Shown here piece after piece: positions 732-29,200 of a DNA stretch of 64,000 nucleotides. A model generated the notes under the pieces. It saw only the letters and a program-made list of their open reading frames with translations. It did not search any database and had not been told where the DNA came from. The stretch is taken from assembly GCF_037975245.1 (NCBI RefSeq), contig NC_092568.1, forward strand, positions 37,784,501 through 37,848,500, written 5' to 3'. The position numbers and the translations under genes are program-made. How positions within the stretch are numbered: the stretch's first letter is position 1; each line of letters begins with the position of its first letter. The DNA is from Apostichopus japonicus. Lineage: Eukaryota > Echinodermata > Holothuroidea > Aspidochirotida > Stichopodidae.

Positions 732-3700
732 GTTGGTCGTGATCCGACTATACACATCTGGGATGCGACTACTATGAAGACGTTAGCAATGCTGAAAGGC
801 CAGCATCAGAGAGGCGTGTGTGCTGTTGACTTCTCAGGTAGGGAGTTGATAGATAGATAGATAGATAGATAGATACATAGTTAACACATAAAGACGTTAG
901 CAATGCTGAAAGGCCAGCATCAGAGAGGCGTTTGTGCTGTTGACTTCTCAGGTAGGGAGTTGATAGATAGATACATGTTAACACATAAAGACGTTAGCAA
1001 TGCTGAAAGGCCAGCATCAGAGAGGCGTTTGTGCTGTTGACTTCTCAGGTAGGGAGTTGATAGATAGATACATGTTAACACATAAAATGTTTCTTTAGCT
1101 TACATCTCTTGTCTTCTGTTATCATCGTCTTTGTTAAATTTGTTGGAAATTTTGAACCTAGCTGGATGTTTGTCAGAGGCAAAGTTTAAAAAATGAGGCA
1201 TTAGTTATATTGTTGAAGGTAATAAGAAAAGATGCATGCAATATTTGATTTGAAGTCCTGCTCTTTATGTATCGTCTAAGGTTTATCTGCAAAGATATCA
1301 GTTACTTGGGCATTTATGTGTTTTAATATATTCATCTATTCATATTGTTTTAATATATTCATAGTGTTTCAAACTATCCCTCCATTCATATTGTTTTAAT
1401 ATATTCATCTATGCATATGGTTTTAATATATCCATCTATTCATATGGTTTTAATATATTCATCTATTCATATTGAATATTTGTACCATGTTGATTTATTC
1501 AGGTGATGGCAAGAGATTAGCGAGTGTCGGCTTAGATGACAACCACTGCATCGTGGTCTGGGATTGGCGTCACGGTGAGAAGCTAGCAACAACCAGAGGC
1601 CACAAAGATAAAATTTTTGTCATTAAATGGAATCCAAATTTATCAGACAGATTGGTGACAGTGGGGGTGAAACATTTAAAATTCTGGACACAAGCTGGTG
1701 AGTTCTTGTTTACAATAATACATCAATTAGAAGACTTTTCCTTGCTATATGAGACAACAGCAATTCATCAAACAGTTGGTTATTAATAACTGCAAAAGTC
1801 TGTATTTTTCCCCTTATTCCGACCTTTTTTGTCGGTTGTAGTTTGTGTAGACTGAGCAAGTTATATGGTTTGGAAATTATTTTCTGTTCGTTAGCAATGA
1901 AGAGTCCAACATGGAATCTGAGAAAACTTCCAGTGATAATAATAAGAGTGGTGTCAAACAGTGAATAAAACCATGATAACCCACCCAGCTTAGACTTTAC
2001 CATGATTAGTCATGTTTTGATAAAAAATTGAAGCAGTATGTACTATGTGGAACTCTTCCTTTCATCACTATGGAGTAGAGAATACATCCTACAGTGAACT
2101 TAACTTTAGGTGCACCAATAGGGGTATGCACATATAACACTAGGTCAGCAGAAATCTGCATGTTTTACATTTAATTCTACATGCTAGCAAGCCGCTCTCA
2201 TGAGGTTTTTATCGTTACCTTGTTGCACTCATCACATTTTAATTGGTCCGATCGTTAGCTGATGAGAGAGTTGCCTAATTTGTTTCTCGTCTCTTTTTTG
2301 TTGTTTTTGTTTTAAGGTGGTGGATTCAATTCAAAGAGGGGCACCTTTGGTAACGTGGGTAAGCCTGACACCATGATGTGTGTAACCTTTGGCAAGACCG
2401 CAGAGATGACGTATTCAGGGGGAGCAATCGGTAACATCTACATCTGGAATGAGTTTCAACTGATCAAAACCTTCAGGGCACACGAGGGACCCTGTATAGC
2501 AATGCACTCATTAGACAAGGTACACAACCCCCTCTGATATCTTCACACCCATCTCAGACCCTGTTGTCTTCACGCCCTTACTCTGATGACATGTATACCT
2601 TCGGGACACACAAGGGTCCCTGTACTGAAGTGTGCTCTTTCTATAAAGTAAGCAATCCCTCGTATCTCCACACCTCGCAACATGACAGCTTACCCTTCAG
2701 TGCATATGATGGACCTTGTATAGCAGTGTAATCTTTACATATATGATAATCATACGACGACTAAGTTGTGTCATCAGTGCACCACCTTGTCATAGAAACA
2801 TTGATCTTGATCCATCCATTATTTATCAAAGAGAGTATTGCAGATTTAAGTGATCCGTCCGTAGTGCACCAGTTTTTTAAATTCAGACAAACTTCTGACC
2901 ACCTCTCATTCAAACTTTAGCCATCTTGACCATCCCTGTTGGAACTCTTTCAGCCAACAGACATGCCATTAGAGACAGATCCTCCAGTAGATAGATTGGT
3001 AATGCTGTATATAAATGGACTTAAAAAAAAACCTGAAAAAATCATGGAAAGTACTTAATTTATATGATGCTTTCGTTGTTATTCAAATTTGATGCAATGT
3101 TCATGGACATCACTGCATCTGGACCAGATACACCCTTCTGATTTATAAACAGGTGTCCATCTTATCCATTACATGAGGTAGCAATATGTATCATGAAAAG
3201 CTGTTAAAAGAGACACATACCCATCCGTCATCTTTGCTCTTAGTGATAAAGATGACTGTGTTGTACTACTTCCTCAAACTCCTAAGAAAAATCTCGTTCC
3301 ATTTGGGAGATATCACAGATTTAATGATTCCTTCACATATGAAAACAGAAGACTTGATCAAGTCTAAATATGATGTCATGGAACCACTTGTGCTTCAATT
3401 TCTTCTGTTTTTCTTTACTTATTACACGTTGTATATTGTTCGTAGTCGGAATGGATTTTGAAATTACTGAAGCATGACCTATTGAAGGCACTGCTCTCAG
3501 TGTCAAAATTATATCTTAAAAAATATGAAAAGTAAGATGGCAAGAATAAAGTGGAGAAATGTTGAGGGTTTCAAATCCATGTGTAAATATGACAGACATG
3601 ACTTTTTATCCTGTAAAAAGGAGGAAGGTTTTTCTGAGCTGTTTGGGAGGGGGGGGGGGACTTGTTTATTTATCACAGAAAAGTTCTATCAAATAATCTA

Positions 3701-26291: not shown

Positions 26292-29200
26292 TTAGAATCT
26301 CCTGCCTCCTCCTCCACCACTGCCGTACCCACCACCACCGTAATCTGTGAAAACAAGATGGAGAGCAACTGAAGCAAAGAGACCAGATATGTAGGACAGT
26401 GAAGACAAGGGGGTGTTCTCAGATGGTCCACTCTCCCCTCCCCCCATCCCTTATCAATGAGAGCGTAACAGTCAAATTGCTTAACACAACGGGCTTTATG
26501 GCCTCTCTTGACCAGCTGATGGAATATTGCCTTCCTGTCTGAAAATCTGGAAGGATCTCAATAGTTACTTACTGCTGTATGGTCCACCGGCAGGACCTCC
26601 ACCATATCGCCCACTGTTCTGTCTAACAGGGCCATAACTCGAGTTTTGGGATCCATATCCCGAACCAAAGTTGCCACCACCATTGCTGTTGTATCCACCT
26701 GCAATGAAGAGAAACGTAGATTTGCAAGATCTCGCATAATTCAGTGAGCAAACGACTTTCTTCCATGAGGATGGTCCAAAACTTTGCCTGGATATGTTCA
26801 CACCAAGCTAAGCAATCTTTACCAACAGTGGCTCATTCAAAGTGTCACAGCCAAAGTCTGAAAATATGAGTCTCTTAGAGATGGTCTTCATTTCTCGCTA
26901 CATAATTTTAATCATAAATATAAAATTTCAAAGAACTGATGCATTTCCAATTCCCACTCTTATATAATAGACTATTTCCCACTTAAAACAATACAACATT
27001 TCGTGATATTTACCTCCTCCTCCTCCTCCGTATCCACCGCCTCCTCCTCCATATCCACCACTGCCTCCTCCTCCATATCCACCACCTCCGTAACCACCAC
27101 TGCCACCTCCTCCATATCCGCCACCTCCATATCCGCCACCACTGCCTCCTCCTCCTCCGTATCCGCCACCAAATCCACTGCCTTCATAGTTTCCACCTCC
27201 TCCAAAACCACCTCCTGTAAAGAGAAATAGAGAGGAGATAATGTACATCATTAGACTGGGCCCGGCATTTACATTCTTCCCTGCTGCCGGTTTCCTGCTT
27301 TTCTACATACCAGGTAATTAAATTGCAGGGGTAAACTTGATTTTCCAATGAATCACTGACATGTAGAGTCATAGGACCAGAGCAACTCTAATACAAAGGG
27401 GTTCAAGGGGCACACTTTAGGGCCCTTGGCGGGGGTCCGTTGGCCGGAACCGCTGGGAACTAGTGGGTACTATTAGACTATTGAATAGCTAGGCATTCAC
27501 AGATTAGGGTAGAATATAGGGCCTGCACTGCAGTAGGGACAAGAAACATGTTTTGGTTTATTTTGTGACGTCAGCAAGCAACCAAAAAGAAAATAAAGTA
27601 CTTATCTCCCAGGTTGCACAATATCATAACATTTAGAGGAAAAGAAAATATACATTTTGGCTGCCCTCACTCGCACAAGTGGCTGCTTGGCATTCTAAAG
27701 AAAGTTACACCATGACTTGTTTTTTCGTTTTCATGAAAATATAAAATTATCTTTAGTTTGTTCTACACCTGTATGAACTTACCACCACCCCCATAATAAC
27801 CATCACCACCTTCGTAGCCACCACTGCGGTCACCAAAGGTACCACCTCCTCCTACACCCCTAAGTACTTACCGCCACCACCATAATAACCATCCCCACCT
27901 TCATAGTTGCCACCGCGGTCACCAAAGTTACCACCTCCTCCTCCTCCATTGAATCTTCCACCGCCTCCAAAACCATTAGGATCTGCAAATAACATGAAAG
28001 AAGAATCTTGAATACTAAAACGAAAAGTCATTTATGGAAAATAATATAATATGATGCACTTGTTTGACTGGAAAAATGTCTTCCCTAACCACACCTCTTC
28101 ATGACCTCTTTCAGTATGAAAATTAACTGTCTTTGATTCAGCTAAATCTGCAACAAATCTCAGCTGCTAAGAGTCAAAGGACAAATTGTGAATTAGCAAG
28201 AGTGCAATTCATTACCATTTACTAAGTCAGTTTAGGCTTTTAATTTTGCCATCACCCCCCTACTTACTGTTTCTCCTTCCTCCTGGTCCATCCCCCCCTA
28301 CTTACTGTTTCTCCTTCCTCCTGGTTTATTCCCCTTCTTACTGTTTCTCCTTCCTCCTGGTACAACCCCCTCCCCCTACTTACTGTTTCTCCTTCCTCCT
28401 GGTCCACCCCCCCCTACTTACTGTTTCTCCTTCCTCCTGGTCCATCCCCCCCTACTTACTGTTTCTCCTTCCTCCTGGTTTATTCCCCTTCTTACTGTTT
28501 CTCCTTCCTCCTGGTACAACCCCCTCCCCCCTACTTACTGTTTCTCCTTCCTCCTGGTCCACCACCCCTCCCTACTTACTGTTTCTCCTTCCTCCTGGTC
28601 CATCCCCCTACTTACTGTTTCTCCTTCCTCCTGGTAACCCCCCCCCACCCTTCCTTACTGTTTCTCCTTCCTCCTGGTACAATCCCCTTCTACTTACTGT
28701 TTCTCCTTCCTCCTCCTCCTGGTCCATCACTCCTTTGGTCTCTCTGTGACGGCTTAGCCTTGCTGCATTCAACCTCTATCCCATCGATTGTCATCCTTTT
28801 GCGAACTGATGAAGGAAAAAAATAAAAATAAACTGTTAACCTGCTGATGTCTGAAAACAGCTTTGGACTTCAAACACCTTGGGTTAAAGCCACACGTAGT
28901 AAAAACAGCCATACTGATACCAATCTTGAAAGTAAATGCTAATACATAACTACTCAATGATGCTCAGTATGTGTTTTGGCAATAAGTTTGGTCCACTTAC
29001 AGAGGTTTGGCAAATAATATGAATTCCATTTTCAATTCACTCTCTCTCTGCAAATGCACCAAAATTTTGGCAAATAAGTCCATCATAATTTGTTCAATTA
29101 TTTGGTTATTCAGTTTAGTCCTTTGTAATAATGCGGCTTCACTTTAGCTTCAAAACCCTGGTGTTAAGATTGACATATTATCCCCAGAATTGTTTATTAA

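Follow-up and report, generated by a model that had tools for sequence, protein, structure and literature searches.

Why should the ends of coding exons, together with their 5' splice sites, be copied again and again into the introns that follow them? The question was raised by a 64,000-nt stretch of the sea cucumber Apostichopus japonicus genome (assembly GCF_037975245.1, contig NC_092568.1, positions 37,784,501–37,848,500; the whole stretch is called the window below), which carries an EML gene and an oppositely oriented hnRNP gene. An earlier note on the window had described five tandem duplications of an exon end with its splice donor in these two genes, and all five were confirmed (Table 1). 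The arrays are of the mirage kind, already known from amphioxus and found here in another deuterostome with a measured lean towards donors. This lean probably reflects, in part, a filter imposed by splicing.

Exon borders in the window were set by the reading frame and the splice consensus. The captured units measured 38, 89, 97, and 99 bp and all of them spanned the exon–intron boundary. The two intronic 97-bp units of the EML gene (880–976 and 977–1073) repeat the last ~60 nt of the exon at 732–837 plus CAG/GTAGGG (a slash marks the splice boundary); they are identical to each other and each matches the exonic unit at 89% in an ungapped alignment of 97 nt. The earlier note had also proposed that the duplications differ in age. 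The 99-bp copy is identical to the exon at 98 of 99 positions, and in the eroded copies of the end of exon 2317–2519, 2598–2641 and 2694–2737 retained 73% and 80% of a 44-nt reference. The latter set was the weakest of the five, and only its copy at 2694 passed the self-comparison (E = 0.007). In the 99-bp case the match runs for 112 nt at a 99-nt offset, and the 13-nt near-repeat TCAYGTGACCAAT lies at the ends of the unit; this is the trace expected from short-homology tandem duplication, as such duplication leaves it. The 89-bp hnRNP case, with its two units at 27763–27940, showed an overlap of just 2 nt (91-nt match, offset 89). In the ~38-bp hnRNP array, whose units fill 28253–28714, ACA/GTAAG was present in 11 intronic copies. 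The downstream hnRNP copy at 27763–27852 (minus strand) could, as a separate observation, serve as an alternative exon: read from TAG/GA it keeps the original phase and the Gly-rich reading, approximately five codon changes are synonymous by eye, and a distinct pyrimidine tract is missing from its putative acceptor.

The pattern was then surveyed in the genome that contains the window (671,581,487 bases, 35 contigs). The sample comprised 249 exon matches in 61 gene clusters, namely 126 kinesin, 70 myosin, and 53 CCT matches. Among the matches listed, which come from the part of the candidates that was scored, the kinesin and myosin sets entered in full, as did 53 of the 57 CCT matches; the four dropped (C8:490794 and three at C3:29768027–29769685) had long open frames and looked intronless. 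The exons are hidden Markov model (HMM) matches, some of them in clustered or paralogous genes. Each match was taken with 430 nt on either side, oriented with its gene, and compared with itself by blastn at E <= 1e-3, and the criteria were fixed after the kinesin set had been inspected. Splice sites were placed with a simple weight matrix around the match ends. The donors of regions L033, L045, L068, and L168 were altered by eye after the hits had been seen, and the automatic calls alone also gave 17 covered donors (with L168 included and L033 left out); acceptors near arrays were inspected by eye afterwards and none was changed. The capture calls, that is, donors or acceptors spanned, had no length limit, while matches with complexity <0.2, offset >500 nt, or length <24 nt were removed before occupancy and array ends were counted. 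Dinucleotide-shuffled versions of every second survey region (the window was not part of this control) gave 0 self-matches at E <= 1e-3, >=24 nt, and offset <=500 nt. Tandem Repeats Finder (TRF) was run on the same regions with period >=10.

Tandem copies covered 17 of the 249 donors and 3 of the 249 acceptors (sign-flip over clusters, P = 0.011), with 11 of the 61 clusters leaning to donors and 2 to acceptors. In 16 of the 17 covered donors the copy lay in the following intron, while in L125 it lay upstream of the exon. Under a strict rule, by which a spanning copy must hold >=10 exonic and >=6 intronic nt, 14 donors stayed. The three acceptor captures were found in L011, L083, and L137; thus, the idea that acceptor copies never occur could be ruled out, and the earlier statement that acceptors are not duplicated holds for the two genes of the window and fails genome-wide. 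The proposed donor bias, for its part, extended beyond the window as a bias and not as an exclusion. Equal frequencies at donors and acceptors, set in advance as the refuting result, were not seen in this 249-exon sample, and the donor bias is supported in it. Two borderline regions were noted: in L118 the copied exon end stops 3 nt before the donor, while in L009 exon sequence is copied upstream without the acceptor. Both stand outside the 17 and the 3 and inside the counts of array ends given below.

The occupancy of sequence by tandem copies revealed the same asymmetry in another form. At 200–400 nt from splice sites it was 9.4% (5.4–14.2), compared to 6.8% at donors, 1.2% at acceptors, and 1.4% within exons. 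Relative to this background, occupancy was 0.72 (0.47–1.02) at donors and 0.13 (0.00–0.34) at acceptors, and the TRF value for donors was 0.42 (0.14–0.66). The first 200 nt of introns were occupied to 10.5% and the last 200 nt to 4.1% (P = 0.002); TRF gave 9.3% and 4.5% (P = 0.048). In the profile by distance, which uses the automatic splice-site calls, occupancy on the donor side was 0.074 at 0..24 and 10.8–12.1% at +50..+249, while on the acceptor side it fell from ~9% at 250–300 nt upstream to 1.3% at 0..24.

The positions at which arrays begin were concentrated near donors. Seventeen left ends fell in the last 100 exonic nt, 16 in the first 100 intronic nt, and 4 at 100–250 nt, and the mirrored counts of right ends at acceptors were 4, 10, and 12. 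The density of ends relative to pooled deep intron was 3.09 (1.80–5.59) at donors and 1.31 (0.71–2.40) at acceptors (donor versus acceptor, P = 0.008). The donor excess amounted to 3.19 on the exonic side and 3.00 on the intronic side, and the exonic ends alone differed between donors and acceptors (17 versus 4, P = 0.038).

The form of the arrays indicates how they could be borne. Each of the 17 survey arrays with an exonic start had less than one unit in the exon, so that one copy stays coding. Survey copies were offset by ~31 to 250 bp, and a few arrays had a single intronic copy. The consequence of using the next copied donor could be worked out for 18 of 21 sites, the GT having been lost from the copy at two and an aligned copy being absent at one; an in-frame stop or a frameshift resulted in 18/18, five of them from the window. 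The earlier suggestion of tolerance is thereby supported, with the correction that it would rest on use of the first donor and not of the outermost one. A short tandem duplication would span the exon–intron boundary and then expand into the intron; such arrays would be common because tandem duplication is frequent in the introns of this genome, where it accounts for about 9% of the sampled sequence. At donors they would be kept, since the first copy would remain coding, its donor would still be used, and the extra copies would be plain intron. At acceptors they would be scarce: the splicing machinery would reach the additional upstream acceptor before the original one, extra sequence would enter the mRNA, and selection would presumably remove such copies.

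This filter is probably not the whole story. Array starts are approximately three times denser near donors than deep in introns, which makes it likely that arrays arise or persist there at a raised rate, whatever may cause the excess. A simulation pointed in the same direction. The window's arrays were placed at random, any that extended into the exon by a whole unit were removed, and 85% of other donor-spanning and 12% of other acceptor-spanning arrays were kept, the two values being chosen by the analyst. On the acceptor side the simulation reproduced the shape of the observed slope but with lower values, while near the donor the simulated occupancy came to between one fifth and one third of that observed, which argues that tolerance does not account for the pattern by itself; the gap is indicative only, since finished arrays were placed instead of being grown from a single duplication. 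Acceptor depletion alone was accordingly dropped as the cause of the asymmetry, because, simulated in this way, the donor side was too sparsely occupied.

Several results weigh against a donor lean that is due to splicing tolerance with an added donor excess. Tolerance alone predicted 0.019 at 0..24 on the donor side where 0.074 was observed. The strength of the lean depends on the method, TRF giving 10 donors versus 3 acceptors (P = 0.24). Intron-only ends within 100 nt showed no clear asymmetry (16 versus 10, P = 0.27). The events are also clustered, with starts near donors in 19 of the 61 gene clusters and ends near acceptors in 12, and the deep-intron reference behind the density ratios is small and uneven (4 on the donor side, 12 on the acceptor side).

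A mutational bias, with the 5' ends of introns as birth sites of tandem duplications (co-transcriptional DNA breaks being one conceivable route) and a minor part for splicing tolerance, is the less likely account, though one to be taken seriously. The threefold density of array starts within 100 nt of donors against 1.31 at acceptors, the similar excess on the exonic and intronic sides, and the low donor occupancy under tolerance alone all speak for it. The low deep counts in flanks cut at 430 nt and the intron-only comparison speak against it, as does the GC skew of intron starts, which was 0.104 with arrays and 0.055 without (25 versus 224 exons, P = 0.26). The earlier proposal of a local bias at donors thus keeps its first half, an excess being suggested, while the G-rich cause attached to it left no sign. 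An unexpected difference was seen instead on the acceptor side, where the last 50–250 nt of introns had a GC skew of 0.172 with arrays and 0.004 without (16 versus 233 exons, P = 0.005); this argues against an R-loop mechanism specific to donors. That the neighbourhood of the 5' splice site is a true birth hotspot independent of splicing tolerance, with introns growing preferentially from the donor end and acquiring ranks of spare donors, is likewise a reading less likely than not.

Selection for the duplicated donors as additional places for U1 snRNP to bind, for instance against early polyadenylation, had also been suggested and appears very unlikely. GT was retained in 66 of the 72 intronic copies of 20 arrays, and the copies differed from the exon at 6.3% of positions in the donor 9-mers compared to 11.5% in the flanks. 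In ten arrays with >=2 intronic copies the donor columns varied less than other windows (4 versus 13 expected, P = 0.02; non-consensus letters, P = 0.007); these arrays were chosen by hand among those whose copies are intact, and some of the alignments are poor. The difference vanished when the 20 arrays were compared one by one (Wilcoxon, P = 0.37). Moreover, the copied GT was lost in the single-copy cases L011 and L033, 5 of the 9 copies in L111 still have it, and all 11 copies of L166 are without one donor base. The U1 proposal is weakly supported at best. An assembly artefact, through collapsed or stuttered repeats, is more improbable still. The near-identity of the copy at 18243 (98/99) and the identical copies in 880–1073 speak for it, but most copies have diverged from the exonic one, some by as much as about 30%, and comparable arrays turn up in numerous gene clusters spread over several chromosomes. 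The assembly is probably that described as built from PacBio HiFi reads, which span arrays of such size; it comprises 671.60 Mb in 23 chromosomes of 18.21–46.02 Mb and 34 scaffolds (PMC10344927). Splicing tolerance with some additional birth or retention at donors is the preferred reading.

The closest known counterpart is the amphioxus mirage. Passages of two papers describe tandem units of 10 to 160 bp across the exon–intron boundary, with AG/GT often but not always kept, in genes including Adh3, the globins BflGb6 and BflGb9, TnC, and PGBD5, and they report undisturbed splicing where splice signals are duplicated (PMC3087553, PMC3902484). The sea cucumber arrays share the boundary-spanning units (the five window arrays, 16/249 donors copied into the next intron, and 3/249 acceptors), minisatellite-like units in the ~10–160 bp class (38–99 bp in the window, survey offsets to 250 bp), splice signals kept in many but not all units, and the fact that either boundary can be duplicated. 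They differ in the organism, in the many gene clusters concerned, and in the measured donor lean, whereas the amphioxus passages stress duplication of both boundaries and give no rate. The amphioxus mirages are, in those passages, backed by RT-PCR and haplotype data, while the present arrays are known from a genome sequence.

Intron gain by tandem duplication of AGGT segments (PMC4974935) shares the starting event, a duplication with a splice signal; the Rogers model of intron gain by tandem duplication is named in the passages of PMC3087553. Here no new intron was seen and the copies lie inside an existing one. Ordinary intronic minisatellites have unit lengths and array sizes like those of the window's intron-only arrays, but the captured arrays include coding sequence and a splice site. 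Among the titles and abstract openings in the part of the literature covered, two amphioxus papers aside, no donor–acceptor count or asymmetry and no sea cucumber arrays were found. To our knowledge, mirages have so far come from a handful of lancelet genes. If it is true that about 6–7% of donors in a second deuterostome carry mirages and that acceptors are avoided, as this three-family sample suggests, they would form a natural record of the splice-site duplications that a genome tolerates, offer a system in which to study how the spliceosome chooses the first among near-identical donors, and possibly supply the material from which introns grow or arise.

Table 1. Exons and tandem arrays of the EML (plus strand) and hnRNP (minus strand) genes in the window
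Start	End	Strand	Feature	Remarks
732	837	+	EML coding exon	Donor CAG/GTAGGG, GT at 838
774	1086	+	97-bp tandem array	1 exonic and 2 intronic copies
1315	1474	+	27-bp intronic array	Ends ~26 nt before acceptor AG 1501–1502, not spanning
2317	2519	+	EML coding exon	Donor AAG/GTACAC
2598	2737	+	Two eroded intronic copies of exon 2317–2519 end	
9081	9393	+	50-bp x6 array	Starts 20 nt past donor at 9061; absent from earlier note
10408	11067	+	31-bp x21 array	Starts 3 nt past donor GTAGGT at 10405; absent from earlier note
18112	18212	+	EML penultimate coding exon	Donor TTG/GTGAGT
18144	18354	+	99-bp tandem duplication and 13-nt partial third copy	98/99 identical
27763	27942	-	89-bp duplication of exon 27872–27982 end and donor	85% identical
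27872	27982	-	hnRNP coding exon	Donor GCG/GTAAGT
28253	28734	-	~38-bp array, about twelve units	1 exonic and 11 intronic copies of exon end/donor
28698	28805	-	hnRNP coding exon	Donor ACA/GTAAGT

The identity of the two genes was supported by domain searches. One exon of the EML gene matched Pfam Beta-prop_EML (9.5e-25, 88.0 bits, just missing the curated cut-off of 88.2), and against the PDB the same exon retrieved WD40 proteins, with EML1 (4ci8, 2.5e-10) among the best though not at the top. The second gene matched RRM_1 and hnRNP A2/B1 (1.1e-29). Across both genes 7 arrays begin within 100 nt of a donor and 1 ends within 100 nt of an acceptor, the 27-bp array at 1315–1474, a count that is post hoc in that five of the seven come from the earlier note. 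No donor capture was found in the 13 kb upstream within the EML gene, which marks the window as a dense patch. When second haplotypes of three window regions were sought in the genome, the only full-length match was the window itself, and the other matches were short, low-complexity, or dispersed.

Dense patches were also encountered in the survey. The densest was the CCT gene of L164–L170 (C17:156374–179330), with tandem copies in 6 of its 7 regions, four of which (L165–L168) have tandem copies on both sides of one exon. The kinesin gene of L017–L018 (C16:17322000–17329000) carries two donor captures with units of ~145 and 92 bp, the latter present about four times at 97% identity, plus more intronic arrays.

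The remainder of the window holds other repeats. An intronic 39-bp x20 array (15287–16077) has a period that is a multiple of 3 and long open frames on both strands, and no further sign of a gene was seen in it. Within an hnRNP intron, 29208–29388 has many ~71–84% matches on many contigs and is taken as a dispersed repeat. Two stretches on the minus strand (~62980–62850, GGATAGCTCAGTTGG..., and 59060–59000, GTTAGCTCAGTGGTTAACGCC...) are tRNA-like and by eye resemble tRNA-derived short interspersed elements (SINEs), and ARAGORN made zero tRNA calls in the window. At 30880–31532, ~650 bp built of TTGGGCGAAAT-like subrepeats lie between inverted repeats (44 nt at 89%, 56 nt at 89%, and 37 nt at 95%), and the whole looks like a non-autonomous DNA element. 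The window's left edge (77–231) is a foldback of nested palindromes, with 58-nt arms at 88% identity and inner 33-nt arms at 100% with 1 nt spacing.

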